From positions 6,076,001 through 6,140,000 of the forward strand of contig NZ_CP146614.1 in the NCBI RefSeq assembly GCF_037094685.1: a stretch of 64,000 nucleotides of DNA, in the 5' to 3' direction. This document shows, in pieces, positions 5,057-60,367 of this stretch; position 1 is the first letter of the stretch; every line of letters begins with the position of its first letter. Source of the DNA: Massilia sp. METH4. Its GTDB lineage: Bacteria; Pseudomonadota; Gammaproteobacteria; Burkholderiales; Burkholderiaceae_D. A program made the translations under genes and the position numbers. Under the pieces are notes generated by a model. It searched no databases, was not told the DNA's origin, and saw nothing but the letters and a program-made list of their open reading frames with translations.

Positions 5057-5107
5057 GGTGTCGCACATCTTTTCCGGGCGCCTCACCCGGAAAAGGTGTG
5101 CGACACC
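5057..5107 (+). repeat. GGTGTC palindrome, copy A (downstream of smpB)
   Basis: 22-base arms beginning GGTGTCGCACA and ending TGTGCGACACC pair with one mismatch around a 7-base loop (CGCCTCA). It starts 21 bases after the smpB stop, so it is well placed as a terminator hairpin. The element is followed by a degenerate tail GGTGTTC in place of GGTTTTC. It faces copy B tail-to-tail 87 bp away. Confidence 0.85.
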
Positions 5108-5194
5108 GGTGTTCCCAACCGGCGTCGGCGGCAGCCGCGTATTCGCGTGTCCGCATGAGAGAAGGTCGTTCCCGGGCTAGCGCACGGGAAGACC

Positions 5195-5244
5195 GGTGTC
5201 GCACACTTTTTTTCCCGCAAGAGCGGGAAAAAATGTGCGACACC
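5195..5244 (-). repeat. GGTGTC palindrome, copy B
   Basis: Arms of about 23 bases (GGTGTCGCACACTTTTTTTC... and its near-complement) enclose a 4-base loop. The tail lies on the left, so it points at copy A. The 338 bp between smpB and the lipoprotein gene at 5374 contain only this pair and no gene that I can support. Confidence 0.85.
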
Positions 5245-5373
5245 AGGCTCGGCTAGCGGTCTTGGCGTTGGCACTTTTGCACGTCGCGCGTGCACCACGC
5301 TGCGGCATGCTTCATTTCCGTGTGGCAATGAGTGCGTGCTACACTCCCGGGACTCCTTACACCGGTCCCGCCC

Positions 5374-6051
5374 ATGTTCTTCAAAGTCGCCACCGCTACC
5401 GCCCTCGCAGCCGCCCTGGCCGGCTGCGCCGTACCGTACTCGCCCGCGCCGATCGCCGCGAACTTCCCGGCCGCGCGCCAGGAAAAGCTGCAGGCCGCCT
5501 CGCACTGGAATGCGGTGGCCGACCATATCGAGCAGCGCGTGGTCACGGAGATGAAGAAGCATCCGCAGCGGCCGTTCTACATCGCCGCGGACAAGGATGC
5601 GTCGCCGTTCAAGCGCGCCGTCACGAACCAGATCGTGACCTCGCTCGTCAAGGATGGCTTCGTGGTGTCGCGCACGCCGGCCGGTGCCTGGAACGTGGAG
5701 CTGGACATCCAGGCCGTGACGTTCACGCCGAACCGCCCGCAATACCGCTATTCCGGCGCGCACACGGCGCTCGCCACCGGCGCCTGGGTGCTGTCCGACA
5801 TCGACCCGGCCGTCGGCCTCGTGTCGCTGGCTGGCGCGGCCGACGCCTTCCGGTGGTTCCACAGCCAGTTTGCCGGCGGAGCAACGCCGAAGACGGAACT
5901 CATCGTCACGCTGTCGGTCGGCGACCAGTTCCGCTACTATGCCCGTTCGACATCGGCCTACTACGTGGCCGATACCGACCGTGCGCTGTACGGCATCAAG
6001 GAAGAGGACACGCAATTGACCAAGGTATTCCAGGTACAGGGGGGCCGTTGA
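5374..6051 (+). CDS. Putative lipoprotein of unknown function
   Basis: A 225-residue protein with a lipoprotein signal peptide: MFFKVATATALAAALAGC, lipobox LAGC at residues 15-18. The body is soluble, with a Gly/Ala-rich central segment (SGAHTALATGAWVLSDIDPA) that may be a short membrane-associated loop. The ATG at 5374 is preferred to the upstream one at 5332 because it begins the signal peptide. Its stop overlaps the start of the next lipoprotein gene in a TGATG arrangement, so the two are translationally coupled and probably work together at the outer membrane. No family was recognised. Confidence 0.75.
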   Translation: MFFKVATATALAAALAGCAVPYSPAPIAANFPAARQEKLQAASHWNAVADHIEQRVVTEMKKHPQRPFYIAADKDASPFKRAVTNQIVTSLVKDGFVVSRTPAGAWNVELDIQAVTFTPNRPQYRYSGAHTALATGAWVLSDIDPAVGLVSLAGAADAFRWFHSQFAGGATPKTELIVTLSVGDQFRYYARSTSAYYVADTDRALYGIKEEDTQLTKVFQVQGGR

Positions 6052-6599
6052 TGCGCACCCTTGCCGCCCTCGCCATTGCCCTGGCCACCGCGCTGCTGGC
6101 AGGCTGCTCCAGCACGCCGCCGAAGGATGAAGCGAATTACGCCACGGTCTCGTCGAACCAGTTCGTCAACGCCAACTACAAGGCGGCCGAAGCGCTGCTG
6201 TCCCAGCTGAACGGCAAGCTGGCGGCCGACAAGCCGCTAATCATGGCCACCATCGTCAACATCGACGCGCTGGACCAGACTTCCACGCTGGGCCGCCTGA
6301 TCTCCGAGCAGATCTCGACCCGCATGGCCCAGGGCGGCGTGAAGATGCTGGAAATGAAGCTGCGCAATTCGGTTTACCTGAAGCGCAACCAGGGCGAACT
6401 CATGCTTACACGAGAGATCGGCGAAGTGGCGCAGACGCACAGCGCCCAGGCCGTCGTCGTCGGTTCCTACGCCGAGACGAGCGACATGGTGTTCATCAAC
6501 GTGAAAGTCGTCCAGCCGCAGAGCAACTTCGTGCTGGCCGGCCACGACTACGTGCTGGCCAAGGAAGGCATCGTGCGCTCGATGCTGCTGCAGCGCTGA
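6051..6599 (+). CDS. FlgO-like outer-membrane lipoprotein
   Basis: A 182-residue protein with lipobox LLAGC at residues 15-19 followed by SSTPPKDE. The body resembles the FlgO domain: NANYKAAEALLSQL, then a conserved block from MATIVNIDALDQTSTLGRL to ISEQISTRMAQGG, and QAVVVGSYAETSDMVFINVK. FlgO in Vibrio is needed for flagellar stability, but there are no flagellar genes here, and the domain also occurs in general envelope lipoproteins. Coupled to the upstream lipoprotein by an overlapping stop/start. Confidence 0.75.
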   Translation: MRTLAALAIALATALLAGCSSTPPKDEANYATVSSNQFVNANYKAAEALLSQLNGKLAADKPLIMATIVNIDALDQTSTLGRLISEQISTRMAQGGVKMLEMKLRNSVYLKRNQGELMLTREIGEVAQTHSAQAVVVGSYAETSDMVFINVKVVQPQSNFVLAGHDYVLAKEGIVRSMLLQR

Positions 6600-6650
6600 C
6601 AACCCTGCCAGGCGCGGATATAGTGGCGCTTTCGACAACGAAAGCCGGCC

Positions 6651-7229
6651 ATGTTCGACCGCTGCACCTGGCTCAACGAGCCGCCCTCCCACCGCATCGA
6701 CGACGGCGGCACGCTGCACGTCGTCACCGGCGACCAGACCGACTTCTGGCGCATCACCAGCTACGGCTTCATCCATGACAACGGCCACTTCCTCGCCGGG
6801 CGCGTGGAAGGGTCCTTCACGGCCCAGGTGCTCGTGCATGCCGACTTCACCACGCTGTACGACCAGGCCGGCCTGATGGTGCGCATCGATGCGCACCGCT
6901 GGCTCAAGGCCGGCGTGGAGTTTTCCGACGGGCAGCCGATGCTCAGCACCGTGCTGACCAACGAACGGTCCGACTGGGCAACCATGCCCGCGCCGGCCCT
7001 GCCCGATGGCTTCTGGCTGCGCGTCACGGTCGACGGTGGCGCAATCCGCGTGCAGTACTCGGCCGATGGCTGCGTATGGCCGCTGCTGCGCCTTGCGCCG
7101 TTTCCCGAAGCCGAGCATTACCTGGTCGGCCCGATGTGCTGCACGCCGCAGCGTGCAGGCCTCGACGCGCGCTTTTCCGACTTCACTGTCGGTCCCGCGC
7201 TGGGCAAGGACCTGCACGACCTCACGTAA
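6651..7229 (+). CDS. DUF1349 family protein (concanavalin-like fold)
   Basis: A 192-residue cytosolic protein matching DUF1349: it opens CTWLNEPPSHRIDDGG, then DQTDFWRITSYGFIHDNGHF, DQAGLMVRIDAHRWLKAGVE, and the C-terminal GPMCCTPQRAGLDARFSDF. Members have a beta-sandwich lectin/glucanase-like fold and no assigned reaction. No signal peptide is visible. The last codons overlap the convergent sirtuin gene by 8 bp. Confidence 0.85.
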   Translation: MFDRCTWLNEPPSHRIDDGGTLHVVTGDQTDFWRITSYGFIHDNGHFLAGRVEGSFTAQVLVHADFTTLYDQAGLMVRIDAHRWLKAGVEFSDGQPMLSTVLTNERSDWATMPAPALPDGFWLRVTVDGGAIRVQYSADGCVWPLLRLAPFPEAEHYLVGPMCCTPQRAGLDARFSDFTVGPALGKDLHDLT

Positions 7230-8052
7230 CACCGAGGAGCCCAGCCACGGCCGGCAGCACTTCCTGCGCCGGCAGCGCCAGCTTCAGACCGATCAGCTCG
7301 TCGGCGCGCGTCTTGCCGGCGTTGATGGCGGCGATCGGCTTGCCTTCCGCTGCCGCGATCTTGCAGAAGCGGAAACCCGAAAACACCATCAGCGAAGAGC
7401 CGACGACCAGCAGGGCATCGGCTTCGTCCATCCATTGCAGCGCCTGCCGCGTGCGCTCGGCCGGGATGTTATCGCCGAAGAACACCACGTCCGGCTGCAA
7501 TACCCCGCCGCAGGCTTCGCACTGCGGCACGATGAATTCCTCCAGCGATTCAGGCTCCAGGTGCGCGTCGCCGTCCGGCAGCGGCTGGGCCAGCACGCTG
7601 CCCAGCGCGGGATTGTCGCGCAACAGGCGCTGCTGGAGCTCGGCCCGGTGCTGCCGCCGCTCGCACGCCAGGCAGCGCACGGTGTGGATATTGCCGTGCA
7701 ATTCGATCAGCCGCACGCTGCCGGCGCGCTGGTGCAGGCCATCCACGTTTTGCGTGATCACCTGGCCAATATGACCGGCCGTTTCAAGCCGCGCAAGCGC
7801 GCGGTGCCCGGCGTTCGGCTCGGCACCGGCCAGCGTCGGCCAGCCCACCATGCTGCGCGCCCAGTAGCGGCGGCGCAGCGCGTCGCTGCTGCGAAATTCC
7901 GGCCCCTGCACGGGCGGCTTGCCGCGGCGCACGCCATCCTCGTCGCGGTAGCCTGGGATGCCCGAGGCGGTGGACAAGCCGGCGCCCGTCAGCACGAGTA
8001 CGTTGCGGTGGCGGTCGAGAAACTCGGCCAATCGATCGATCTGTTCATTCAT
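7222..8052 (-). CDS. Sir2-family NAD-dependent protein deacylase
   Basis: Removes acyl groups from lysines using NAD. The 276 residues contain all class motifs: the NAD-binding GAGLSTASGIPGYRDEDG, TQNVDGLHQRAG, the catalytic His in ELHGN, two zinc Cys pairs (RCLAC and QCEAC), and GSSLMVFSGF with AINAG near the end. The sequence suits the mitochondrial SIRT4-like bacterial group rather than CobB, but the substrate cannot be told. The ATG at 8052 is chosen because it starts the family N-terminus (MNEQIDRLAEFLDRHRNVLV). Divergent from the ECF sigma operon. Confidence 0.92.
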   Translation of the reverse strand: MNEQIDRLAEFLDRHRNVLVLTGAGLSTASGIPGYRDEDGVRRGKPPVQGPEFRSSDALRRRYWARSMVGWPTLAGAEPNAGHRALARLETAGHIGQVITQNVDGLHQRAGSVRLIELHGNIHTVRCLACERRQHRAELQQRLLRDNPALGSVLAQPLPDGDAHLEPESLEEFIVPQCEACGGVLQPDVVFFGDNIPAERTRQALQWMDEADALLVVGSSLMVFSGFRFCKIAAAEGKPIAAINAGKTRADELIGLKLALPAQEVLPAVAGLLGVT

Positions 8053-8070
8053 GGAGGGTATGCTACACCT

Positions 8071-8082
8071 GTCAATATTGAC
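8071..8082. promoter_or_regulatory. 12-bp palindrome in the sirtuin/ECF-sigma divergent region
   Basis: GTCAATATTGAC is a perfect palindrome 18 bp before the sirtuin start and 80 bp before the sigma factor start. The position fits an operator for the divergent promoters, but no regulator is identified. Confidence 0.3.
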
Positions 8083-8162
8083 CCTGGTTTGAACCGTTCG
8101 CGCGGAATCCGGAATATACGGTGGACCGCGGTAATGGCGAGTCGCTACATATGGGAGCGCGG

Positions 8163-8765
8163 ATGCAGCAAACAATAGCAGGCGGCCTGGCCTCGGCCGC
8201 CGGGGCGCGGCCCGGGCCGGCGCGGGCGGACACGGAAGAAGCGCGATGGCTGGCCCAGGTGGCACAGGGCAACCGCCAGGCCTTCGAGCGCCTGTACCGC
8301 GGCTATTTTCCCCGCCTCGCGCGCTTTCTCGGCCGCATGACGCACAGCGCTCCGCTGGTCGAGGAAATCATCAACGACACGATGCTCGTCGTGTGGCGGC
8401 GGGCGGGGAGCTATGATGGCAGCAGCAAGGTTTCGACGTGGGTGTTCGGCATCGCCTGGCGCAAGGCGAAGAAAGCCCTGTCGATGGTGGACGAGCCCGT
8501 GGCATCGGACGACGCCGCTTATCCGGACGAGTTTCCTTCGCCCGAGCAGCGGGCACTGGCGGACCAGCTGGCGCGGCGACTGGCCGCGGCCGTGGAATCG
8601 CTGCCCTGGCCGCAGCGGCTGGCCGTGGTGCTGACGTATTTCCACGGCATGGACTACGCGGAGATCGCCGACATTGCCGAATGCCCGGTGGGCACGGTCA
8701 AGACGCGCATGTTCCATGCGCGGCGCCGGCTGAAGGAACTGCTGGCCGGCGAGGAGGAAGAGTGA
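8163..8765 (+). CDS. ECF RNA polymerase sigma factor
   Basis: A 200-residue extracytoplasmic-function sigma factor. Region 2 is seen in FERLYRGYFPRLARFLGRM and LVEEIINDTMLVVWRRA; region 4 is the C-terminal helix-turn-helix YFHGMDYAEIADIAECPVGT followed by VKTRMFHARRRLKEL. The ATG at 8163 is preferred to those at 8121 and 8151 because GGGAG lies 5 bases upstream. Its stop overlaps the start of the anti-sigma gene (TGATG). The operon continues with a subtilase and an outer-membrane protein, so these are its likely regulators or targets. Confidence 0.93.
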   Translation: MQQTIAGGLASAAGARPGPARADTEEARWLAQVAQGNRQAFERLYRGYFPRLARFLGRMTHSAPLVEEIINDTMLVVWRRAGSYDGSSKVSTWVFGIAWRKAKKALSMVDEPVASDDAAYPDEFPSPEQRALADQLARRLAAAVESLPWPQRLAVVLTYFHGMDYAEIADIAECPVGTVKTRMFHARRRLKELLAGEEEE

Positions 8766-9406
8766 TGGACACCCTTGAGAACGACGAGCACGCCGCGGCC
8801 TGGCCGCTGCTGCCCTGGCATGCGACAGGCCGGTTGGCCGGCACCGACGAAGCACTGGTGGCGGCGCACCTGCGCCATTGCGCCACCTGCCAGGCCGAGC
8901 TGGCCTGGCAACGCCGCCTGCATGGCGCGGCAGCACAGGCCGGCCAGGATGTGCCCATCCCGGATGCGGATGCGGCGCTGGCACGCCTGCTGCCCCGCCT
9001 GGACGAACCCGTGGACGCCGAACGGCGCCAGCCTCGGGCTCCCGGCATGCTGGCCGCCCTGTTCGCCTGGCTGCGCAGCACGCCGCTCGTGCCGGCCGCC
9101 CTCGCGATGATGCTGGTCGCCCTTTTCGTGGTGCGGCAGCCTGACCCGGTCACGGGCTACCGGGGCCTCGGGCCGATCCCGGAAGCGGCGGGCAACACGA
9201 CCGTGGTGTTCCGGCCCGACACGGGCGCGGGCGAAGTGCGCCGCATCCTTGCCGCCGCCGGGGCCGGGGCGGTTCACGGCCCCACCGCCGCCGGGGCCTA
9301 CGTGCTGGAGATCGCGCCCGGCCAGCGTGCGGCGGCGCTGGAGCGGCTGCGCGCCGAATCGGCCGTGCTGATGGCCGAACCGCTCGACGCGCCGGAGCCG
9401 CGGTGA
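8765..9406 (+). CDS. zf-HC2 anti-sigma factor with a propeptide-like periplasmic domain
   Basis: A 213-residue single-pass membrane protein. The cytosolic part (1-106) has the zinc-binding anti-sigma signature HLRHCATCQAE (His35/His38, Cys39, Cys42). One transmembrane helix lies at about 107-123. The periplasmic part (about 144-206) reads TTVVFRPDTGAGEVRRILAA, then GAYVLEIAPG, ALERLRAESAVLMAEPLD. This resembles the I9/fervidolysin-type subtilisin propeptide fold in its strand-helix-strand spacing and terminal VxxAEP. Since the next gene is a subtilase, the domain may bind that protease. Overlaps both neighbours, so the three are co-translated. Confidence 0.88.
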   Translation: MDTLENDEHAAAWPLLPWHATGRLAGTDEALVAAHLRHCATCQAELAWQRRLHGAAAQAGQDVPIPDADAALARLLPRLDEPVDAERRQPRAPGMLAALFAWLRSTPLVPAALAMMLVALFVVRQPDPVTGYRGLGPIPEAAGNTTVVFRPDTGAGEVRRILAAAGAGAVHGPTAAGAYVLEIAPGQRAAALERLRAESAVLMAEPLDAPEPR

Positions 9407-10638: not shown

Positions 10639-11390
10639 TTTTTCCACCCTCAGGCTTCCCGGCCGCCGGGGCGCCATTCGCGGCCGCAAGGGCGCTTTTT
10701 GCGGTCCTGCTCTGCTTCGTGGTCCTGCACCCCGCCACGGCGTACGCCCAATGGTCCGGCAGCGTTGCCGCCCTGTCCGAATACCGCTATCGGGGCAATG
10801 CGCTCAGCGAAGGCAAGCCGTCGGTACAGGCGGGCGTGGCCTACGACGCCGGCGGCTGGTATGCGGGCGGGTTCGCGGCGGGCACGCGCTGGTATGGGCG
10901 CCGCGGCGCGCAATGGCTGCTGTACGCGGGCCGTGCGGGCCGCCTCGCGAATGGCATGTCGTGGGATGCCGGCATCAGCACCGTGCGCACCACGAACGGC
11001 GCCTATGGCGGCTACAACGAGGTGTACACGGGACTGTGGCGCGGCGGGGCCGCCGGCAGCATGTCGGCGCGCCTGTCATGGTCGCCCCGTTATGCCGGCG
11101 GCGATGCGCGCACCCTGTATGCGGAGCTCGATGCCGGCACCGCCGTGAGCGACAGGATCGATGCGTTCTTCCACGCCGGCTTGCTGCATGCCTTGTCCGG
11201 CCCCCGCGTGCCGCAGCGGGCGGACGTGCGGGTGGGATTGTCGGCACGGGTCGGCGAATTCGGTGTGCAGGTGGCGTATGACCGGAACAATCATCGCGGG
11301 GGTTATGCGGTGTCGTATCCGGGTTATTACGGTTACACGGCGCCGCCGTCGCGGGATGCGGTGATCGTCTCCGTCAGCCGGGGGTTTTGA
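10608..11390 (+). CDS. TorF-family putative porin / Gcw_chp outer-membrane protein
   Basis: A 260-residue protein with a long N-terminal leader and hydrophobic signal segment (ALFAVLLCFVVLHPATAYA), then a beta-barrel-like body that begins WSGSVAALSEYRYRGNALSE, typical of the proteobacterial TorF/Gcw_chp family (TIGR02001-like). The body alternates aromatic and polar residues and ends in phenylalanine (SRGF), as outer-membrane barrels do. The start overlaps the subtilase by 31 bp, making it the fourth gene of the sigma operon. The function is unproven; an envelope pore or a sensor partner of the protease is possible. Confidence 0.75.
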   Translation: MHACDRCPPLVFPPSGFPAAGAPFAAARALFAVLLCFVVLHPATAYAQWSGSVAALSEYRYRGNALSEGKPSVQAGVAYDAGGWYAGGFAAGTRWYGRRGAQWLLYAGRAGRLANGMSWDAGISTVRTTNGAYGGYNEVYTGLWRGGAAGSMSARLSWSPRYAGGDARTLYAELDAGTAVSDRIDAFFHAGLLHALSGPRVPQRADVRVGLSARVGEFGVQVAYDRNNHRGGYAVSYPGYYGYTAPPSRDAVIVSVSRGF

Positions 11391-14652: not shown

Positions 14653-14723
14653 CGAGGGGACTGACCCCAGCCTTCGGCTGGCTCCGCTGGAACGCAGGCC
14701 AAAGGCTGGGGTCAGTCCCCTCG
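14653..14723. repeat. Perfect 22-bp inverted repeat (GGGGACTGACCCCAG type)
   Basis: Arms at 14653-14674 and 14702-14723 are exact reverse complements (core GAGGGGACTGACCCCAGCC) with a 27-base loop. Each arm also contains the small self-complementary GGGG...CCCC. It is a separate sequence family from the GGTGTC palindromes. It is followed at 14731-14760 by another perfect hairpin, CGGCAACAGG/CCTGTTGCCG with a 10-base loop. Confidence 0.85.
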
Positions 14724-14809
14724 GAAACGCCGGCAACAGGGCATGGGCTGCCTGTTGCCGGGGACGGACCCCTATACCTCGGAGGTCGCGGTTACATCCG
14801 CCGACAACC

Positions 14810-14840
14810 GGTGTCGGACACCCGTTGGGTGTCCGACACC
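14810..14840 (-). repeat. GGTGTC palindrome, copy C (downstream of ppsA)
   Basis: Short form: 14-base arms GGTGTCGGACACCC and GGGTGTCCGACACC with a 3-base loop, perfectly paired. It lies 26 bases after the ppsA stop on the minus strand. The CCGGTTG-like tail (reading minus) is on the far side from ppsA, as expected for a terminator. Confidence 0.85.
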
Positions 14841-18372: not shown

Positions 18373-18415
18373 GGTGTCGTACACCTTTCTCCGCAGAAGA
18401 AAGGTGTACGACACC
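18373..18415 (+). repeat. GGTGTC palindrome, copy D (downstream of ppsR)
   Basis: 18-base arms GGTGTCGTACACCTTTCT and its exact complement enclose a 7-base loop, 46 bases after the ppsR stop, followed by GGTTTTCTCC. Outside it a second complementary pair, CCTCTGG and CCAGAGG, extends the symmetry. Confidence 0.88.
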
Positions 18416-21405: not shown

Positions 21406-21452
21406 GGTGTCGTACACCTTTTCCGGCGCAGCCGGAAAAGGTGTGCGACACC
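21406..21452 (-). repeat. GGTGTC palindrome, copy E (downstream of sigJ)
   Basis: 22-base arms with one mismatch around a 3-base GCA loop, 45 bases after the sigma gene stop. This copy is the exception in orientation: its degenerate tail (ACAACC side) faces the stop codon. Confidence 0.88.
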
Positions 21453-25419: not shown

Positions 25420-25462
25420 GGTGTCGTACACCATTTCCCTGGGGGGAATGGTGTACGACACC
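25420..25462 (-). repeat. GGTGTC palindrome, copy G (downstream of the EAL gene)
   Basis: 20-base arms GGTGTCGTACACCATTTCCC and its near-complement with a 3-base TGG loop. Preceded on the left by GAAAACC, so the tail points at copy F and away from the EAL gene, whose stop is 27 bases to the right. Confidence 0.88.
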
Positions 25463-34754: not shown

Positions 34755-36113
34755 TTACAGCAACCGCGCGACATCGTTGAATACAGCGAGCGCCATCAAG
34801 GTCACCAACAACCCGACACCCAGCCGCTGTGCAATCTCCCCAAAACGCTCCGGCACCGGGCGCCCAGTCAAAACTTCCAGCGAATAATACAGCAAATGGC
34901 CGCCATCCAGAACCGGTATCGGGAGCAAATTCATTACCCCGAGGCTGATGCTGACGACCGCCATGAACGACAGATAGCTGGCCAGCCCGATGCGCGAACT
35001 CTGGCCCGCGTAATCGGCGATCGTGATGGGACCGGTCACGTTCTTCCACGAGACTTCGCCGACGATCATCCTGCCGATCATGCGCACGGTGAGTACGCTG
35101 GTGTCCCACACCTTGCGCGCGGACTTGGCCAGCGCGGCGAGCGGACCATCCGCGACGACGATCATATCCGGCCGCCCCAGCAGTTCGACCTTGATCTTAC
35201 CGACTGTTACACCGTCTTTACCCGTCTCCGCGTCCGGCACCACGGGCACCTGCACGATCTCGCCGCCGCGCCGCACGTCGAGCTGCACCGTGCGGCCCGC
35301 GGCCTTGCGGATCGCGCCGCTGAACGCACCGATATCGACGACCGGCTTGCCGTCCATCGCCACCACCTGGTCGCCGCTGCGCAGGCCGGCGCGCGCGCCG
35401 GCACCCGCCGGATCGACCTTGCCCAGCACGGGCGCGGGCAGCCAGATGGCAAAGCCCAGTGCGCCCGGCACGTCATCGTCGAGGTCGACCGCGCGCAGCG
35501 CTTCCGCCGGCAGCGTGAACGTGAAGCGGCCGCGCCCGGGCCGCTCCAGCTCGACCTGGGCGGGCGTGCCATCCTTCGCCTCGACCACCGCTTCGATCAG
35601 CTCCCAGCGCAGCTCGGACCAACCCTGGACGGGATTGCCGTTGACGGCGCGCACCACGTCGTCGCGATCCAGGCCGGCGATCGACGCGGGCGTTCGCGCC
35701 GCCGGCTCCGCGATGCGCGTGGCCGGCTCCTCGATGCCGTGCATGTACAGGCCGGCGTACAGCGCGATCGCCAGCAGGAAATTGGCGATGGGGCCGGCGG
35801 CGACGATGGCGATGCGCTTCCACACGTTCTGGCGCGTGAATTCGCGCGGCAGGTCGTCGGGCGGGATATCCTTCGCGTCCTGCTCGCGGGCGTCCAGCAT
35901 TTTCACGTAGCCGCCCAGCGGCAAGGCGGAAACGGCCCACTCGGTCTGGTCCGGCCCGAAACGGCGCGACCACACCACGCGGCCCATGCCGACCGAAAAG
36001 CGCAGCACCTTCACGCCGCACCAGCGCGCCACCAGGTAGTGGCCCAGCTCGTGGATGATCACGAGCGTGCCCAGGGCAACGATGAAGGCAAGCAGTGTCT
36101 GCAGCAGGTTCAT
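34755..36113 (-). CDS. rseP: Site-2 intramembrane zinc metalloprotease
   Basis: Cleaves membrane anti-sigma factors such as RseA and remnant signal peptides. The 452 residues have the metal site HELGH in the first transmembrane helix (ALGTLVIIHELGHYLVARW), the second metal ligand in NLLPIPVLDGGHLLYY near the C-terminus, and two PDZ domains between (AGLDRDDVVRAVNG; AGLRSGDQVVAMDGKPVVD). It could also act on the anti-sigma factor encoded at 8765, but that is inference. Confidence 0.96.
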   Translation of the reverse strand: MNLLQTLLAFIVALGTLVIIHELGHYLVARWCGVKVLRFSVGMGRVVWSRRFGPDQTEWAVSALPLGGYVKMLDAREQDAKDIPPDDLPREFTRQNVWKRIAIVAAGPIANFLLAIALYAGLYMHGIEEPATRIAEPAARTPASIAGLDRDDVVRAVNGNPVQGWSELRWELIEAVVEAKDGTPAQVELERPGRGRFTFTLPAEALRAVDLDDDVPGALGFAIWLPAPVLGKVDPAGAGARAGLRSGDQVVAMDGKPVVDIGAFSGAIRKAAGRTVQLDVRRGGEIVQVPVVPDAETGKDGVTVGKIKVELLGRPDMIVVADGPLAALAKSARKVWDTSVLTVRMIGRMIVGEVSWKNVTGPITIADYAGQSSRIGLASYLSFMAVVSISLGVMNLLPIPVLDGGHLLYYSLEVLTGRPVPERFGEIAQRLGVGLLVTLMALAVFNDVARLL

Positions 36114-39102: not shown

Positions 39103-39136
39103 GGTGTCGGACACCGGATTTTCGGTGTCCGACACC
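39103..39136 (+). repeat. GGTGTC palindrome, copy H (frr-uppS gap)
   Basis: Short form: 14-base perfect arms GGTGTCGGACACCG/CGGTGTCCGACACC with a 6-base loop GATTTT, followed by GGTTTTC. Tail-to-tail with copy I. Confidence 0.88.
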
Positions 39137-39178: not shown

Positions 39179-39224
39179 GGTGTCTGACACATTTTCGGGC
39201 AAGCCCGAAAATGTGTCAGACACC
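39179..39224 (-). repeat. GGTGTC palindrome, copy I (downstream of frr)
   Basis: A perfect 22-base palindrome half (GGTGTCTGACACATTTTCGG and GC) repeated in reverse after 2 bases, ending CACCAGG. It lies 31 bases after the frr stop. GAAAACC on the left is the tail, pointing away from frr. It may terminate the pyrH-frr transcript before uppS. Confidence 0.9.
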
Positions 39225-47361: not shown

Positions 47362-48708
47362 ATGAAATTCGATTCCGCACTGATGGCCCGCTTGCAAGCA
47401 GCCACGCAAGACTTGATGAAGGACGGCCCGCTGTCCGCCACCGCCGCGATCCAGCGTGCGCTGGCAGGCGATGATGCCCCGGCAGCCGAGCCGCCTACGA
47501 AAGGCGCGCAGCCCGGCGCGACGATGAAGGATCTGAATCCGCCGCCGGAAAAACCGCAGCCCCGCCGTGCCCCATGGGGCCGCAAGGCGGCGCGCGCCGA
47601 TGATCCGCCACCGCAGGGAGCAACGCAAGAGCAGCCCGGTCCGAAGAGCGGCATCCCGGACATGGCGGACATGCTGGCCAAGGCCGGCATCACGCTGCCC
47701 GAAGGGTTCGCAGACAGCTTCAAGGAAAAATTCAAGGGCGGCCTGCAAGGCGAATGGCAGGGCAAACTGCCCGAAGGCCTGCTGGACAACCTGCCGGAAG
47801 CGTTGAAGAATGCCAATCTGCCGGGTGGCCGCAAGCGCCCGCCACCTCCCCCGCTGCCGGACGGCGCGCGCTTCGACAGCGCCAGCTACACCTGCTCCGC
47901 GGGCACGCGCGGCTACAAGCTCTACGTGCCGAGCACCTATAAATGCGACGGCCAGCCGGTGTCGCTGGTGGTAATGCTGCACGGTTGCACGCAGGACCCG
48001 GACGATTTCGCCGCCGGCACCCGCATGAACCAGGTGGCGGAGGAAACGGGCTGCCTGGTCGCTTACCCGGCGCAATCGCAGCAGGCCAACAGTTCGAAAT
48101 GCTGGAACTGGTTCAGCGCCGCTGACCAGCGGCGCGATCAGGGCGAGCCGGCCATCATTGCCGGGATTGCCCGGCAGGTGATGGCCGAGTACAAGGTAGA
48201 CACGGCGCGGGTGGGCATCGCCGGGCTGTCGGCCGGCGGCGCCATGGCGGTCGTGGTCGGGTCGCTGTACCCCGAGCTCTTCAAGGCGGTTGGCGTGCAT
48301 TCCGGCTTGCCGTTCGGGTGTGCGACGGATTTGCCCTCGGCCTTGCAGGCCATGCAGAAGGGCTCTTCGTCCGGGTCCCGCCCGGTAGCAAGCCCGCCGC
48401 TGATTGTCTTCCACGGCGACAAGGACCGGACCGTGCATCCGAAGAATGGCAGCGATGTGCTGGCACACGGTCTCGTCGGGCAGGCAGGCGCGGCGGAGGT
48501 TCAGCGGGGCAAGGCCGACGCGGGGCGCAAGTACACGCGCACCGTGCACCGGGCGGCCGATGGACGGGTGCTTGCCGAGCACTGGGAATTGCATGGCGCC
48601 GGGCACGCCTGGGCTGGCGGAAGCGCCAGCGGGAGCTATACCGACCCGACGGGGCCGGATGCAAGCCGGGAAATGGTGAGGTTCTTCAGCCAGGTGGCCG
48701 GCGCTTGA
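47362..48708 (+). CDS. PHB depolymerase family esterase
   Basis: A 448-residue protein with a C-terminal catalytic alpha/beta hydrolase (about 180-445) of the extracellular short-chain-PHA depolymerase type 1 class: VVMLHGCTQDPDDFAAGTRM, WNWFSAADQ, the Ser in IAGLSAGGAM, Asp in VFHGDKDRTVHP and His in ELHGAGHAWAGG. The first 170 residues are Pro/Lys-rich and probably disordered, starting MKFDSALMARLQAATQDLMK, with no signal peptide, so an intracellular or granule-associated location is more likely than secretion. Substrate may be PHB oligomers or another ester. Confidence 0.88.
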   Translation: MKFDSALMARLQAATQDLMKDGPLSATAAIQRALAGDDAPAAEPPTKGAQPGATMKDLNPPPEKPQPRRAPWGRKAARADDPPPQGATQEQPGPKSGIPDMADMLAKAGITLPEGFADSFKEKFKGGLQGEWQGKLPEGLLDNLPEALKNANLPGGRKRPPPPPLPDGARFDSASYTCSAGTRGYKLYVPSTYKCDGQPVSLVVMLHGCTQDPDDFAAGTRMNQVAEETGCLVAYPAQSQQANSSKCWNWFSAADQRRDQGEPAIIAGIARQVMAEYKVDTARVGIAGLSAGGAMAVVVGSLYPELFKAVGVHSGLPFGCATDLPSALQAMQKGSSSGSRPVASPPLIVFHGDKDRTVHPKNGSDVLAHGLVGQAGAAEVQRGKADAGRKYTRTVHRAADGRVLAEHWELHGAGHAWAGGSASGSYTDPTGPDASREMVRFFSQVAGA

Positions 48709-48723: not shown

Positions 48724-48753
48724 GGTGTCGGACACCTTTAGGTGTGCGACACC
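48724..48753 (+). repeat. GGTGTC palindrome, copy J (downstream of the PHB depolymerase gene)
   Basis: Short form: 13-base arms GGTGTCGGACACC/GGTGTGCGACACC (one mismatch) with loop TTTA, 15 bases after the stop, followed by GGTTTTCCCC. Confidence 0.85.
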
Positions 48754-48806
48754 GGTTTTCCCCAGAGGTCGCGAGTCCAACCGAACACCAGTCGGTCCGC
48801 CGCAGC

Positions 48807-48855
48807 GGTCGCACCATTTTCTGGATGAGGCCCCCAGAAAATAGTGTCCAACACC
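48807..48855 (-). repeat. GGTGTC palindrome, copy K (degenerate)
   Basis: Left arm GGTCGCACCATTTTCTGG and right arm CCAGAAAATAGTGTCCAAC plus ACC pair imperfectly; it ends CACCAGG like other copies and forms a decayed tail-to-tail partner of copy J, 94 bp before map. Confidence 0.6.
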
Positions 48856-48949: not shown

Positions 48950-49768
48950 ATGGCAATCCAGATCAAGACCCCCGAAGACATCGAAGGCATGCGCCTTGCC
49001 GGCCGCCTCGGCGCCGAAGTCCTCGACTACATCACTCCCTTCGTGAAACCCGGCGTGACCACCGGCGAGCTGGACCGCCTGTGCCACGAGTACATGACCA
49101 ATGTGCAAGGCACGGTGCCGGCGCCGCTGAACTATGCGCCGCCCGGCTACCCGCCGTATCCGAAGGCGATCTGCACGTCCGTCAACGACGTGATCTGCCA
49201 CGGTATCCCGGGCGACAAGGTGCTCAAGGCCGGCGACGTGGTGAACCTGGATATCACCGTCATCACCAAGGACGGCTACCACGGCGACAACAGCCGCATG
49301 TTCTACATCGGCCAGCCGACGATCCTGGCCAAGCGCCTGACTGAGATCACCTATGAGTGCATGTGGCTGGGCATCGCCCAGGTGCGCCCGGGCGGCCACT
49401 TCGGCGACATCGGCCACGCGATCCAGCAGCATGCCGAGAAGGCCGGCTACAGCGTGGTGCGCGAGTTCTGCGGCCACGGCATCGGCAAGGGTTTCCATGA
49501 AGAGCCCCAGGTGCTCCACTACGGCAAGCCGGGCACCGGCGAGGAAATGAAGCCGGGCATGATCTTCACGATCGAGCCGATGATCAACGCCGGCCGCCGC
49601 GAGATCCGCGAAATGGGCGACGGCTGGACGATCAAGACGAAGGACCGCAGCCTCTCGGCCCAGTGGGAACACATGGTACTGGTGACCGAGACCGGCTACG
49701 AGGTGCTGACCCTGTCCGCCGGTTCGCCGCCGCCCCCCGCCTTCATCACCGAAAAAGCTGCGGTCTGA
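48950..49768 (+). CDS. map: Methionine aminopeptidase, type I
   Basis: Removes N-terminal Met from new proteins. The 272 residues carry the five metal ligands: Asp in VVNLDITVI and GDNSRMFYIG, His in CGHGIGKGFHEEP, Glu in FTIEPMIN and Glu in SAQWEHMVLVT; CTSVNDVICHGIP is also typical. The start is the ATG after AAGAAAC. Followed 4 bp later by glnD, the usual map-glnD order. Confidence 0.97.
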   Translation: MAIQIKTPEDIEGMRLAGRLGAEVLDYITPFVKPGVTTGELDRLCHEYMTNVQGTVPAPLNYAPPGYPPYPKAICTSVNDVICHGIPGDKVLKAGDVVNLDITVITKDGYHGDNSRMFYIGQPTILAKRLTEITYECMWLGIAQVRPGGHFGDIGHAIQQHAEKAGYSVVREFCGHGIGKGFHEEPQVLHYGKPGTGEEMKPGMIFTIEPMINAGRREIREMGDGWTIKTKDRSLSAQWEHMVLVTETGYEVLTLSAGSPPPPAFITEKAAV

Positions 49769-54126: not shown

Positions 54127-54177
54127 GGTGTCGGACATCTTTTTCCGGGCCTCATCCGGAAAAAGGTGTCCGACACC
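54127..54177 (+). repeat. GGTGTC palindrome, copy L (between convergent genes)
   Basis: 22-base arms with one mismatch around the loop GCCTCAT, 5 bases after the PilZ gene stop and 17 bases from the kinase stop on the other strand; followed by GGTTCTC. The loop is nearly the same as in copy A, which suggests a recent common origin. Confidence 0.9.
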
Positions 54178-54194
54178 GGTTCTCCCCTGATGCA

Positions 54195-55577: not shown

Positions 55578-56242
55578 CGGGCCGGTTCCTGGTCGATCAC
55601 GTAGCCCACGCCGCGCACGGTGCGGATGTAACCCTCGCCGATCTTGCGGCGCAGGTTCGCCATGTGCACATCCAGCGAATTGCTGGCATTGGCCTGGGCA
55701 CCCGGCAGCGCGCTTTCTTCCAGGCTGCGGCGCGTGACCACGCGATCGGCGCGCATCATCAGCGTTTTCAGCAGCTCGTACTCGCTGGCCGTCAGGTCCA
55801 CGGGCCTGCCCTGCACCGCGACGCGGCGCGTGGGCAGGTGCAGGCACAGGCCGCGCAGTTCCAGCGTGGCGCCGTCGAAGCCATAGCTGCGGCGGGCCAG
55901 CGCGCGCACACGCGACAGCAATTCGGCCAGCTCGAACGGTTTCACCAGGTAATCGTCGGCGCCCGTGTCCAGGCCCTGCAGGCGGTCCGGCAAGGCGTCG
56001 CGCGCCGACAGGATCAGCACCGGCACGCCGCTGCGGTTGCGGCGCAGTTTCGCGAGCAGGTGCAGGCCGTCGCCATCGGGCAGGCCCAGGTCCAGCAGCA
56101 CCAGGTCGCAGCGCTCCCCATCCAGGTATTCGTCGGCGGCGGCCATGTGGCGCACCCAGATGACATCCATGCCCTGGTCGGCCAGCGCGATGCGCACGCC
56201 GTTGCCGAGATCCAGGTCGTCTTCGATGAGCAGAATTTTCAT
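55574..56242 (-). CDS. OmpR/PhoB-family response regulator
   Basis: A 222-residue DNA-binding regulator. Receiver domain: acidic pair IEDDLDLG, phospho-acceptor Asp51 in LVLLDLGLPDGDG, Lys102 in YLVKPFELAELL. C-terminal winged helix: LTASEYELLKTLMMRADRVV and SNSLDVHMANLRRKIGEGYI. QseB/PmrA-like. First gene of the kinase operon. The paired hexamers at 56266-56305 in the divergent region are likely binding sites for this or its own autoregulation. Confidence 0.95.
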   Translation of the reverse strand: MKILLIEDDLDLGNGVRIALADQGMDVIWVRHMAAADEYLDGERCDLVLLDLGLPDGDGLHLLAKLRRNRSGVPVLILSARDALPDRLQGLDTGADDYLVKPFELAELLSRVRALARRSYGFDGATLELRGLCLHLPTRRVAVQGRPVDLTASEYELLKTLMMRADRVVTRRSLEESALPGAQANASNSLDVHMANLRRKIGEGYIRTVRGVGYVIDQEPAR

Positions 56243-56265
56243 GAGGCGTATTACACCATCGCCAC

Positions 56266-56282
56266 GTGAAGAAAGTGTGAAG
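56266..56282 (+). promoter_or_regulatory. Response-regulator box 1
   Basis: GTGAAG, 5 bases, GTGAAG is a direct repeat with an 11-bp period, the spacing used by OmpR-family dimers (compare PmrA/QseB boxes). On the minus strand it reads CTTCAC-N5-CTTCAC and lies 24 bp before the regulator start. Confidence 0.55.
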
Positions 56283-56288
56283 ATTTAT

Positions 56289-56305
56289 CTTCATGCAATC
56301 TTCAT
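56289..56305 (+). promoter_or_regulatory. Response-regulator box 2
   Basis: CTTCAT, 5 bases, CTTCAT repeats with the same 11-bp period but on the opposite strand from box 1, 68 bp before the mipA-type start. A third CTTCAT occurs at 56322. The two opposed boxes suggest that one regulator drives both divergent promoters. Confidence 0.6.
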
Positions 56306-56372
56306 GATCGGCTCAGGTTTCCTTCATGCGCGCCCCCGACACTGTGCGCTCCAGAACTCACAGGGATATGCG

Positions 56373-57146
56373 ATGAACAAGAACAACCTGGCCGCCATCG
56401 TCCTGCTGGCGTGCGCAGCCTGCGCGCAGGCCGAGGACAACGTGCTCACCTTCGGTGCCGGCATTGCCGGCGCGGCGCGCTATTCGGGCGCCGACGACTA
56501 CGTGATCGGGCCGCTGCTGGCGATCGACTACCAGATGGCCAACGGCTTCTACGCAAGCACCTTGCGCGGCATCGGCTATGGCGGCGCGGTAGGACCGGTC
56601 TATCTGTCGGCCGCATTGGGGTACCGCGGCGAACGCTCCGAGAAGGACCGCAGCGGCATCGGCGGCGCCAGCGGCAGCCCGGCGCTGCGCGGCATGGGCG
56701 ACGTGAAAGGCAGCGCCACCGCAGTGCTCGGCGCCAGCTGGGACATCGTCGATGGCCTGGCGCTGGAATGGCACGCCGAGCTGCCCGTCAGCAAGCGCGA
56801 GAACGGACGCCAGATCGGCGTCGGCCTGACCGGCACGCTGTACCAGCAGGCCCGCGACCACGTCACGCTGAGCCTCGCCGCGAACATCGCCGACCGCGAC
56901 TACATGCAGACGTATTACGGGGTGACGGCCACGCAATCGGCCCGCTCCGGCTATCGGCAGTATCGGCCGAAGGGCGGCCTGTACGAGGTCGAACTGGGGA
57001 TGACGTGGAAGCACATGATCGACACGCGCTGGGGCGTGACCGGCACCCTGAGCGCCGTCGCCCTGACCCGCGACGCCGCCAACAGCCCGATCACGAAACG
57101 CCCCCGCTCCGCGGCAGGCGCCGTCTACGCGACGTACAGCTTCTAA
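56373..57146 (+). CDS. MipA/OmpV family outer-membrane protein
   Basis: A 257-residue outer-membrane protein. The signal peptide (NNLAAIVLLACAACAQA) is followed by NVLTFGAGIAGAARYSGADD, the typical MipA/OmpV opening, and a barrel with alternating strands ending AVYATYSF (terminal Phe). Members interact with murein synthases or confer drug and metal tolerance. The ATG at 56373 follows CAGGGA. It is divergent from the two-component operon, a common arrangement in which the regulator controls mipA. Confidence 0.88.
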   Translation: MNKNNLAAIVLLACAACAQAEDNVLTFGAGIAGAARYSGADDYVIGPLLAIDYQMANGFYASTLRGIGYGGAVGPVYLSAALGYRGERSEKDRSGIGGASGSPALRGMGDVKGSATAVLGASWDIVDGLALEWHAELPVSKRENGRQIGVGLTGTLYQQARDHVTLSLAANIADRDYMQTYYGVTATQSARSGYRQYRPKGGLYEVELGMTWKHMIDTRWGVTGTLSAVALTRDAANSPITKRPRSAAGAVYATYSF

Positions 57147-57171
57147 GCACCGCAGAGCGGTAGCCAAAATC

Positions 57172-57320
57172 GGTGACAAAACCGGTGACAGGCACCGCCT
57201 TTTTCGGAACATTTCCCGAAAACCGGTGACAGGCACCGCCTTTTTTGAAATATTTCCCGAAGACCGGTGCCTGTCACCGGTTTTCTTGCAACATTCGGCG
57301 AGATCGGTGCCTGTACCGGT
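57172..57320. repeat. Phased GGTGACAGGCACC array (about 41-bp period)
   Basis: Units start at 57184, 57225, 57266 and 57306 (plus a fragment at 57172). The first two read GGTGACAGGCACC and the last two the reverse complement GGTGCCTGTCACC, so the centre forms 21-base perfect arms (57218-57238 with 57265-57285), bounded on both sides by GAAAACCGG/CCGGTTTTC. Spacers are A/T-rich with TTTCCCGAA. It fills the gap between the convergent mipA-type and aldo/keto reductase genes and abuts the stop of the latter. Confidence 0.9.
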
Positions 57321-58151
57321 TTACAGGATATCCAGCGCCACTTTCCGCTTCGGGGCGGGGAAAGCGGCGTCCAGGGTCGCGAGGTCTTCGGGCGTCAGCA
57401 CGATATCCAGCGCGGCGCGGTTGGCGCGCACGTGGTCGGGCTGGACAGCTTTCGGGATCGCGCACACGCCATCCTGCGCGAACAGGAAGGCCAGGGCGAT
57501 CTGCGCGGGCGTGGCGCCATGCCGGGCGGCGACCTGCCGCAGCGCGGGGTCGGCGAACAGCCGTTGTTGCTCGCGCCGGTCCGACTCGAGAGGCGAGTAC
57601 GCCATCACGGGAATGCCGTGTTCGCGGCACCACGGCAGCAAGTCGAACTCGATGCCGCGCCGGCGCAGGTTGTACATCACCTGGTTGGCGGCGATCGCCT
57701 TGCCGCCCGGCGCGCGCAAGGCTTCCTGCATGTCGGCCGTATCGAAATTGCTGACGCCGTAGGCGAGTATCTTGCCAGCCGCGCGCAGTTTCTCGAAGCC
57801 TTCCAGCGTTTCGGCCAGCGGCACGCCGCCGCGCCAGTGCAGCAGGTACAGGTCGATGCGGTCGGTGCCAAGCCGGGCCAGGCTGCGTTCGCACGCCCGC
57901 TGCACCTCGCTGCGCCCGGCGTTGTGCGGGTACACCTTGCTGACGAGCGTGACCTCGTCGCGCCGGCCGGCAATCGCGGCGCCGACCACGCGCTCCGCGC
58001 CGCCTTCGCCGTACATCTCGGCCGTGTCGACCAGCGTGATGCCGAGGTCCAGGCCCAGTTGCAGCGCGCGTACCTCTTCGTCCTGGTGGGCGGGGTCTTC
58101 GCCCATGTACCACGTGCCCTGACCCAGCCGGTGCTGCGCAATGGGGTTCAT
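57321..58151 (-). CDS. Aldo/keto reductase
   Basis: A 276-residue NADPH-dependent oxidoreductase of the AKR superfamily, TIM barrel. Catalytic tetrad seen: Asp and Tyr in [14 protein letters not shown], Lys in [11 protein letters not shown], His in [17 protein letters not shown]-binding segments are LAYGVSNFD and the C-terminal [14 protein letters not shown]. Substrate unknown. Same strand as the OPT transporter, 9 bp after its stop, so probably one transcript. Confidence 0.93.
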
Positions 58152-58160
58152 TTGCCCTCC

Positions 58161-60152
58161 TTATACCTCGATCCTGCGTGCGGAATTCGCGGCCCAACGA
58201 TACAGCGTGACAAGGATCGCGGCGCCGACGGCCAGGGCGATCAGCATGCCGGTCGATTCGTCGACACCGCCGCCCAGGGCCAGCGGCTCCGCATCGCCGG
58301 TGAGCACGATCAGCGCGGCGAGCGCCACGTTGAACAGGCTTTCGCCGACGATGAAGCCCGACATCACGAGCACGCCCACGCGCGAGGCGGCTTCGCCATA
58401 CGTCTTGCCGCGCATCGACTTCTCGAAATAGTAGCCGGCGACGGCGCCCACCACGACCGGCGCGGTCACGGAGGAAGGCAGGTACACGGCCAGGCCGACA
58501 CCCAGCGGTGGCAGGCTGTATTTGCCGTGGCTCGATTTCTTCAGCACGAAATCGATCGCCACCAGTATCAGGCCGATGAGGGCGCCCCAGCCGATCAGGC
58601 CCCACGGCAGGTCGTGGGAGATGACGCCGCGCGCCAGCGTGGAAATCAGCGTGGCTTGCGGCGCCGCCAGCGGCTGGTTCGAGATGGCGTTCTGGTTCGG
58701 CGCGCCGGCGAAGCCGTAGGCCTCGTTCAGCAGGTCCAGCACGAAGGGCACCACGCAGGAACCCGCGAACACGCCGATGACCAGCGCCACCTGCTGCTTC
58801 CACGGCGTGGCGCCGACCAGCTGGCCGGTCTTCAGGTCTTGCAAATTGTCGTTGCCGATCACGGCCACCGCCAGCACCACCGTGGTGACGAACAGCGAGA
58901 ACGCGATCAGCGCCTTGGCGACATCGGGGCCCATCAGTTCGCGGCCGACAAAACCGACCGAGGTGGCGGCGCCGAGGATCGTCAGGATCGCGATGCCGGA
59001 GACGGGCGAATTCGAGGAACCGATCAGGCCTGCCATGTAGCCGCATACGGCAGCGGCCAGCAGGCCGGCCACGAGGATGTAGCCGATGCCGACGGCCACC
59101 AGCGGCGTGGCGACCGATGCGAGCACGCCGCCTTGAAGGAAGGCCGACAGCAGCCAGCCCGCCGGCACCATGGCGATCAGCGTGACGAGGCCGACGATGA
59201 AGATCGGCACATCGCGCTCCACGCGCGGCACTTCGGCGCCGCCGTGTTTCGCCGCGCGTGACGCGGCCAGCGCCGACTTCAGGCCGCCCAGCACGGGCTT
59301 GGCCAGCGTTGCCAGCGTGACGATGGCCGCGGCACCGATCGTGCCCGCGCCCATCATGCGTACCTGGGTGCTCCACACGCCCAGCGCGTGGTCGGCGACC
59401 GATGCGCCGGCGGCCATCGGCGTGACCGCCGTGAGGATCGGCACCAGGATGCCCCAGGCGATCACGAGGCCGACCAGCATGGCAATGCCGACCGTGATGC
59501 CCATCAGGTGACCGGCGCCGACCAGCGCGAGCGACGTGGAAGCGCCCAGGCCCGTGGCGGCGGTGCCGCCGCCGAAGCGGAAGTAATACGCCACCTCGTG
59601 GGATACCAGCTTGGCACCGGCCAATGCGGCGAAGCCGGCCGAAGCGAGCGTGCCCAGGATCACGGCCTTCAGGCCCGCCTTCCCTTCCTGGGCACCGGCG
59701 CGCGACTGCGTGCCCACCTTCAGCACCTCGGCCGCGGCCACGCCTTCCGGGTACGGCAGCTTCGATTCCGCGACAAGGGCGCGGCGCAGCGGGATCGTGT
59801 ACATCACGCCCAGCACGCCGCCGATGGCACAAGCACCGAAGGTGGGCCAGAACGGGATCTCGGCCCACCAGCCGACCATCAGGAGGCCGGGCAGCACGAA
59901 GATCACCGAAGCCAGCGTGCCGGCGGCCGAGGCGATCGTCTGCACGATATTGTTTTCCTGGATCGTTGCGTCCTTGAACGCCGACAGCAGCGCCATCGAG
60001 ATGACGGCGGCAGGAATCGACGTGGCGAAGGTAAGGCCGACTCTCAGGCCGAGATAGACTTGGGCGGCCGTGAAGACGAGCGTGATGAGGATGCCGAGGA
60101 TGATCCCCCGCGCCGAAAATTCAAGTGGATTGGACGAAGAGGGTTGGCTCAT
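58161..60152 (-). CDS. OPT family oligopeptide transporter
   Basis: A 663-residue inner-membrane transporter with about 15 or 16 hydrophobic helices. It begins NPLEFSARGIILGILITLVF and TAAQVYLGLRVGLTFATSIP, the characteristic OPT/YSL opening, and has LPYPEGVAAAEVLKVGTQSR and GFIVGESLFNVALAALIVL near the end. Family members move oligopeptides or metal-chelate complexes by proton symport. The long central loops contain a charged segment (KHGGAEVPRVERDVPIF). Confidence 0.93.
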   Translation of the reverse strand: MSQPSSSNPLEFSARGIILGILITLVFTAAQVYLGLRVGLTFATSIPAAVISMALLSAFKDATIQENNIVQTIASAAGTLASVIFVLPGLLMVGWWAEIPFWPTFGACAIGGVLGVMYTIPLRRALVAESKLPYPEGVAAAEVLKVGTQSRAGAQEGKAGLKAVILGTLASAGFAALAGAKLVSHEVAYYFRFGGGTAATGLGASTSLALVGAGHLMGITVGIAMLVGLVIAWGILVPILTAVTPMAAGASVADHALGVWSTQVRMMGAGTIGAAAIVTLATLAKPVLGGLKSALAASRAAKHGGAEVPRVERDVPIFIVGLVTLIAMVPAGWLLSAFLQGGVLASVATPLVAVGIGYILVAGLLAAAVCGYMAGLIGSSNSPVSGIAILTILGAATSVGFVGRELMGPDVAKALIAFSLFVTTVVLAVAVIGNDNLQDLKTGQLVGATPWKQQVALVIGVFAGSCVVPFVLDLLNEAYGFAGAPNQNAISNQPLAAPQATLISTLARGVISHDLPWGLIGWGALIGLILVAIDFVLKKSSHGKYSLPPLGVGLAVYLPSSVTAPVVVGAVAGYYFEKSMRGKTYGEAASRVGVLVMSGFIVGESLFNVALAALIVLTGDAEPLALGGGVDESTGMLIALAVGAAILVTLYRWAANSARRIEV

Positions 60153-60318
60153 CCTGGTTTCTCCCGGTAGCCCCCGGATTTGTGATCCAGGATTGTTATC
60201 GTATGGTCAATGAGGGTGGTCAATGCTGGGCGGGATATTACGACAGATTTGGTGCGGCGCCAATGATTGCTGGCGCATATCGAAATGCAGTGTTTGCGGG
60301 CTGTGGGATGAGAAAACC

Positions 60319-60367
60319 GGTGTCGCACACTTTTTCCGGGAAAGGCCCGGAAAAAGTGTGCGACACC
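60319..60367 (-). repeat. GGTGTC palindrome, copy M (def-OPT gap)
   Basis: 22-base perfect arms GGTGTCGCACACTTTTTCCG plus GG and complement with a 5-base AAAGG loop; GAAAACC on the left is the tail, pointing away from def, whose stop is 95 bases to the right. The 310-bp gap also contains a direct repeat GGTCAATG at 60206 and 60219 and no gene. Confidence 0.9.

Follow-up and report, generated by a model that had tools for sequence, protein, structure and literature searches.

GGTGTC hairpins at gene ends of Massilia sp. METH4: probable repeat units of a RAYT-type transposase system

A stretch of 64,000 nucleotides from the genome of Massilia sp. METH4 (contig NZ_CP146614.1, positions 6,076,001 to 6,140,000; hereafter the window) carries thirteen copies of a palindrome that opens with GGTGTC, closes with GACACC and ends in a short T-rich tail, ten of them close to a stop codon. 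The locus raises the question of why hairpins of a single family should stand at so many gene ends. The most likely explanation is that they are very small mobile repeats of one family, linked to a gene for a single-strand transposase elsewhere in the genome. We assign a probability of roughly 85% to the reading that the GGTGTC hairpins are terminal repeat units of a system of the RAYT type (REP-associated tyrosine transposase, with REP for repetitive extragenic palindrome), a single-strand transposase of the HUH/Y1 kind, and that they spread as doublets resembling REPINs (REP doublets forming hairpins) and survived at gene ends.

Hairpin doublets and a bracketed transposase gene

The genome under study (G000, 6.88 Mb) was compared with other genomes of the genus, likewise designated by G numbers (74 in all). 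A whole-genome search, as proposed in an initial annotation of the window, returned 214 copies of the strict pattern and none of the reversed pattern. A relaxed hairpin search in the first 1.2 Mb yielded 72 copies; the same sequence gave 3 when shuffled and 2 when reversed. The sets of oriented copies comprised 80 hairpins in G000 and 50 in the relative G020, after 29 of 109 and 12 of 62 hairpins, respectively, had been dropped for a weak match, the lack of a clear tail or an undecided orientation. In an oriented alignment of 65 copies, two pyrimidines preceded a 30-53 nt hairpin, after which came GG, a T-run, a C and a weaker GAGG-like block. Both pyrimidines and the GG, which are able to pair with each other, were present in 59 of 65 copies in G000 and in 43 of 50 in G020. 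Covariation was assessed in 63 copies, two of the 65 rows being excluded. Stem positions 7, 8 and 13 were paired in 59, 49 and 63 of them, compared with means of 44.8, 25.5 and 50.1 after shuffling, so that the stem bases vary with pairing retained, as the initial annotation had stated.

The copies are often organized in doublets of the form hairpin-GGTTTTC-N24-GAAAACC-hairpin, with both tails directed inward. Among 28 adjacent pairs in 1.66 Mb of G000, 20 were tail-inward, 5 tail-outward and 3 pointed the same way; in 0.8 Mb of G020 the tail-inward arrangement was found in 16 of 17 pairs. The gap of the tail-inward pairs measured 36-42 nt in 15 of 20 cases in G000 and in all 16 cases in G020. 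Single, unpaired copies made up 23 of 80 and 15 of 50 oriented hairpins in the two genomes. The unit is a REPIN-like doublet, and the family, like REPs and REPINs, is high-copy and extragenic and forms inverted doublets, mostly with the same spacing.

Four genes with a Y1_Tnp domain are present in G000, and one of them is bracketed by the GGTGTC family. This gene is intact and lies outside the window on the minus strand between spoT and greB (G000:C1:349816-350445). Its product matches the Pfam family Y1_Tnp, and its profile matches the solved TnpArep 4er8 (E=4.6e-4). The upstream flank holds a complete hairpin with GGTTTTCTCTTGAGCTCGC; the downstream flank consists of GCGAGCTCAAGAGAAAACC, a 1409-bp insertion sequence (IS) of the IS110 family and, directly behind it, a second hairpin. 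GGTTTTCTCTTGAGCTCGC and GCGAGCTCAAGAGAAAACC form an inner repeat inverted across the gene, and the GGTTTTC tails point inward. With a hairpin on each flank and both tails directed inward, the RAYT gene itself lies inside a tail-inward doublet, in which the insertion of the IS110 element has cut the left hairpin off from its own tail. The element (G000:C1:348380-349788) scored 363 bits with the NCBIfam model for RNA-guided IS110. Seven exact copies, the one at 349 kb and six more (loci L325-L331), all stood directly after GAAAACC and were followed immediately by a GGTGTC hairpin in six cases and by GACACC in one, in a search whose pattern itself contained GAAAACC; when the bare IS110 end was sought independently in 1.66 Mb, three copies were found, all three after GAAAACC.

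The arrangement recurs in two relatives. In G090, a RAYT with 74% identity has GGTGTC hairpins on both sides and no IS, and in G020 a RAYT with 75-77% identity, split over two reading frames, is likewise flanked on both sides. A RAYT bracketed by inverted copies of its own repeat, the configuration known from RAYT-associated REPs and REPINs, was observed in G000, G090 and G020. The initial annotation had called the palindromes REP-like and had named a RAYT flanked by the same palindrome as the feature to look for; in this respect its proposal was sustained. At the G020 locus (L175, G020:C1:4523500-4526800) the family-matching RAYT is frameshifted, yet the genome retains 122 strict copies.

Transposase group and hairpin class across the genus

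Relatives of the RAYT were collected by an alignment-based profile search of genome contigs, from which the best 80 of 583 relatives were used; a query with the single protein gave none. Of 113 RAYT loci, three were excluded because their flanks were short; of the other 110, 30 lacked an arm label and were kept out of the tree. A quick tree built from 79 RAYTs placed the five rows with GGTG-type arms together on one side of a branch (SH-aLRT 98; a value as low was reached in 0 of 500 shuffles), with four arm labels of the data set, including two of these five (L145, L149), assigned by hand. Strict GGTGTC copies occurred in 9 of 74 genomes, with 214, 141, 122, 45, 42, 6, 5, 1 and 1 copies. Of the six genomes with a RAYT at least 59% identical to the bracketed one of G000, five (counting the frameshifted G020) contained 42-214 copies, and none of the 68 others had more than 6 (Fisher 3.7e-7, at an identity threshold picked after the fact). 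The class of hairpin thus goes with the group of RAYT. Copy number was not tracked by how many Y1_Tnp genes a genome has (2 to 7 in each of 14 genomes), whereas it is tracked by the RAYT group.

Among the loci examined, 19 genomes of the genus have the RAYT together with spoT and greB in one locus. The arms at this site differ among genomes, for example GGGACGGACCC, GGGGACAGACCCC, CGGGACTGTCCCG and GGTGAC. With its changing repeat classes, the spoT-greB slot makes the code by which a transposase recognizes its hairpin testable by comparison. If a RAYT stays at this slot while its hairpin class changes between species, the genus would offer a natural code book of transposase versus hairpin sequence. 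Exact inverted repeats of at least 12 nt were common to both flanks in 79 of 110 RAYT loci and in 72 of 396 mismatched locus pairs. Mismatched pairs also share repeats because classes recur between loci, and a motif test and the tree were relied on instead; of 110 related RAYT loci, 44 carried the motif GGGGWSAS on both sides of the gene and 0 carried its reversed form there. In the tree, G003 and G038 had the same RAYT rows as Pseudoduganella umbonata and P. flava, by which the window would probably fall in that genus in the grouping used here (Oxalobacteraceae). The genomes also contain a second RAYT clade (L017, L092, L093), with arrays of other palindromes on its flanks, for example GAGCTCGTGTC...GACACGAGCTC.

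Gene ends, polarity and the terminator question

Genes were called with a codon model trained on the genome itself (GC-position-trained), without curated annotation. Twelve of the thirteen window copies are exact matches of GGTGTCNNACA/TGTNNGACACC; the copy at 48807 is degenerate yet recognizable. The half-site with at most one mismatch occurred 64 times in the window against 10.4 expected. The twelve strict copies are all intergenic, and the degenerate one lies between a gene ending at 48708 and the next starting at 48950. A stop codon was found within 95 nt of the start of ten copies (5057, 14810, 18373, 21406, 25339, 25420, 39179, 48724, 54127 and 60319), and the tail is directed away from it in nine of these, the exception being 21406. 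The positions, the intergenic location and the layout relative to stop codons given by the initial annotation were all recovered exactly, with the copy at 48807 as the one decayed member. The features of the window are as follows.

5057..5107, plus strand: hairpin with tail GGTGTTC pointing right, left half of a wide doublet; 21 nt past the smpB stop
5195..5244, minus strand: hairpin with tail pointing left, right half of the wide doublet (87-nt gap)
14810..14840, minus strand: short hairpin; 26 nt past the stop of ppsA (phosphoenolpyruvate synthase)
18373..18415, plus strand: hairpin with GGTTTTC; 46 nt past the ppsR stop
21406..21452, minus strand: exceptional hairpin with tail toward the nearest stop codon
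25339..25381, plus strand: hairpin, left half of a canonical doublet; 11 nt past a stop codon
25382..25419, strand not assigned: doublet spacer of 38 nt, GGTTTTC...GAAAACC
25420..25462, minus strand: hairpin, right half of the canonical doublet; the convergent gene's stop is 27 nt away
39103..39136, plus strand: hairpin, left half of a doublet in a tandem region
39179..39224, minus strand: hairpin, right half of this doublet (42-nt gap); 31 nt past the frr stop
48724..48753, plus strand: short hairpin; 15 nt past a stop codon
48807..48855, minus strand: degenerate hairpin with altered left arm, adjoining 48724
54127..54177, plus strand: hairpin between two convergent genes, whose stops lie 5 and 17 nt away
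60319..60367, minus strand: hairpin; 95 nt past the stop of a peptide deformylase gene

The degenerate copy at 48807 is probably the decayed partner of 48724. The window had no Rfam match at gathering thresholds. Other repeats were encountered near the family. Window positions 14656-14772, next to the copy at 14810, hold inverted repeats that belong to a second class, GGGGACTGACCCC/GGGGTCAGTCCCC and GGGGTCAGTCCCC/GGGGACGGACCCC, and a short hairpin of a GGGG arm class, GGGGTCCGACCC-GCC-GGGTCGGACCC, lies at 60394-60419 just past the copy at 60319. A stretch like GTCGGTCCGCCGCAGCGGT recurs in or beside family hairpins, where it takes the place of part of an arm (window ~48785-48815; G000:C1:973912 and 1090225; L122 in G032).

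Genome-wide, the 80 oriented copies of G000 were distributed over convergent (43), tandem (34) and divergent (3) intergenic regions, whereas convergent and divergent regions hold 17% and 26% of the intergenic bases, respectively. In G020, 27 of 50 oriented copies lay in convergent, 23 in tandem and none in divergent regions. A raw polarity count of 58 to 9 was discarded as inflated, because in convergent regions either orientation suits one of the genes. The test was therefore confined to single copies in tandem regions, of which 17 were codirectional with the gene and 4 opposed (13:3 in G000, 4:1 in G020; p=0.007). When every single copy lying no more than 95 nt from a stop codon was counted, the tail pointed away from the stop in 17 and toward it in 4 cases in G000, and in 10 and 4 cases in G020. 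The polarity asserted in the initial annotation is thus present; it is also partly geometric, because many copies form tail-inward doublets, which that annotation had overlooked. A bias for one replication strand was absent, with 27 plus, 29 minus and 2 undecided copies among 58 in 1.2 Mb of one-signed GC skew.

The slot behind ppsA was compared in the ten nearest of 30 loci. A GGTGTC hairpin in the same orientation and with different loops was present in G000, G020, G003 and G032 (one arm altered); G038, G090 and G045 had hairpins or inverted repeats of other classes, and G089, G028 and G046 carried neither at this place, where a native downstream hairpin with a T-run was all that was found. 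The shared slot may reflect either repeated insertion or conversion in place.

Six of the thirteen window copies were folded as RNA. Their energies ranged from -31 to -46 kcal/mol, and each fold ended in an unpaired UUUUC or a variant of it; at least three T in the four tail positions were counted in 65 of 65 oriented copies. The predicted transcripts consequently have the shape of an intrinsic terminator, a stable stem followed by a U-tract, as the initial annotation had described it. The T-run is not the best-conserved part of the tail, and in G000 its centre is the most variable part. In G000, positions 4 and 5 were T in 57 and 57 of 65 copies, the other five positions agreed in at least 64, and position 7 was C in 65 of 65; in G020, position 4 was the weakest (43 of 50), position 7 was C in 46, and positions 5 and 6 reached 48 each. 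The resulting pattern GGT..TC of G000 hints at recognition at the DNA level.

Three comparisons bearing on a terminator function showed no significant difference. An intact TTTT was found in 36 of 47 stop-proximal codirectional copies and in 11 of 17 other copies (p=0.35). Other terminators were detected at 8 of 37 convergent gene ends with the element and at 45 of 125 without it (p=0.11), and at 4 of 15 and 72 of 301 tandem gene ends, respectively (p=0.76). Given their predicted structure, their position and the polarity of single copies, the hairpins may act as weak terminators or 3' mRNA stabilizers. The proposal that the palindromes are REP-like elements kept as terminators or stabilizing stems therefore stood in its first part; its second part is plausible, and the T-run and replacement tests lent it no clear support.

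Competing explanations and comparison with known systems

Under the transposase reading, the RAYT would recognize the folded hairpin together with its tail in single-stranded DNA and would spread the doublet as a REPIN-like, non-autonomous element. Insertions would persist where they are least harmful, just past stop codons and between convergent genes. Copies at gene ends would be transcribed as hairpins ending in UUUUC and could serve as weak terminators or 3' mRNA stabilizers. Where one partner decays, the stop-proximal hairpin would be retained, giving the polarity of single copies. Beyond this, we tentatively suggest, as a possibility that we ourselves regard as doubtful, that a RAYT lineage like the terminal-inverted-repeat-associated tyrosine transposases (TIRYTs) built high-copy hairpins in which each mobile unit carries an orientation-coded terminator, so that a two-way stop is inserted at gene ends and the host keeps the half facing the gene. 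Should the hairpins in fact terminate transcription, many gene ends of one genome would be supplied by a selfish repeat.

Besides the hand-set labels and the post hoc threshold, several observations weigh against the transposase reading. Neither a transposition event nor an empty site was seen. The RAYT protein scored 66.5 bits with the NCBIfam model for REP-associated tyrosine transposases, under its cut-off of 80. The classic REP tag GT[AG]G (GTAG/GTGG) was present within 6 nt of the hairpin foot, on either strand, in 0 of 65 copies in G000 and 0 of 50 in G020. In G020, an automatic comparison of the flanks found just 10 exact bases in common, and the hairpins were recognized by pattern and eye. 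G098 has a RAYT of the group yet no copies. Conversely, no exact GGTGTC arms were found at the examined subset of RAYT loci of G003 (141 copies) and G032 (42 copies), which carry the sister arms GGTGAC/GTGAC or other classes. This last mismatch would fit the class switching that the available part of PMC3686654 describes for Pseudomonas and Stenotrophomonas.

An alternative is that the host evolved the hairpins as intrinsic terminators selected for ending transcription, with an incidental association to the RAYT. The fold geometry with its UUUUC end, the location at 3' ends, the polarity of single copies and the compensatory stem changes all suit this view. We nevertheless consider it unlikely, since the family is patchy in the genus and tracks a RAYT group, and since the same inward-tail doublet brackets a transposase gene. 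Its conservation, moreover, reaches past the T-run, to the C at +7 (65 of 65 copies in G000 and 46 of 50 in G020) and a GAGG-like block; within the T-run, position 4 is variable in G000 as well as G020, and position 5 in G000; and other terminators are not clearly rarer at element-bearing ends.

Still less probable is a DNA uptake signal or protein-binding site in which the hairpins are doubled copies of a functional word, the 13-mer GGTGTCNNACACC. Outside the listed hairpins the exact half-site occurs once within the window, at 35100, and the two central bases vary provided that they pair, which argues for structure rather than a word, even though uptake words form inverted pairs at terminators in other bacteria and single arms are often near-palindromic by themselves (the left arm in 45 of 65 G000 copies and in 14 of 50 G020 copies). 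We give hardly any credence to the idea that the resident IS110 element, which inserts beside the hairpins, made and spread them as its attachment sites. The seven exact IS copies at the GAAAACC junction, six of which adjoin a GGTGTC hairpin, speak for it with the reservation on the search pattern made above; they are set against 214 hairpins, one of them splits a doublet already holding the RAYT, and IS110 elements that target REPs are already known, such as IS621 in the accessible text of PMC11208160. ISPpu9 is described in the corresponding part of PMC8450116 as another IS110 element in REPs. Both resemble the element studied here in that an IS110 inserts at a fixed repeat junction, and both differ in the repeat family concerned.

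The transposase reading can be placed beside several known systems. One consists of REPINs and REPtrons with a RAYT (see also Nunvar 2010, PMC2817692). As PMC3116915 and PMC3686654 describe them, these systems share with the GGTGTC family inverted palindrome doublets, a RAYT that lies between copies of its own repeat, 100 or more extragenic copies, compensatory hairpin changes and the occurrence of single copies. The former source defines REPINs and treats single copies as remnants, and the latter reports syntenic RAYTs with different repeat classes, and orthogroups. The accessible portion of PMC3733652 places REPs after stop codons and between convergent genes, also as dimers. In contrast to REPINs and REPtrons, the GGTGTC units are long hairpins with a GGTTTTC tail and spacers of ~38 nt. 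GTAG, according to the available text of PMC8266576, has a role in recognition. Intrinsic (Rho-independent) terminators share with the family a stable stem followed by UUUUC or a variant just past stop codons; unlike in these, the T-run is short and is not the best-conserved part of the tail.

The family resembles the little-studied TIRYT/TIRtron group. In the consulted portion of PMC3733652, TIRtrons have transposases flanked by inverted repeats, some of which share GGGGWSAS and some of which are doubly palindromic, dimeric and moderately repeated. The RAYT described here is likewise a tyrosine transposase within long inverted repeats unrelated to GTAG REPs. The repeats of the family contain GGTGTC and not GGGGWSAS, a motif found in some, not all, of the published terminal inverted repeats. 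The available part of PMC6006769 indicates that TIRtrons probably correspond to subclass 2.1, near whose genes no REP-like sequences were found there, whereas a 214-copy hairpin family brackets the gene in G000. A C-terminal helix-turn-helix was also sought, and no such family was found in 12 of 12 aligned RAYT relatives at E up to 1; the family is therefore not assigned to subclass 2.1. The GGTGTC hairpin family was not named in the literature searched, the coverage of which was partial, and Massilia, Pseudoduganella and RAYT do not occur in the main text of PMC12306157. An anonymous palindrome family is placed in the RAYT world, and a transposase group on whose repeats little has been published gains a tagless, high-copy type.

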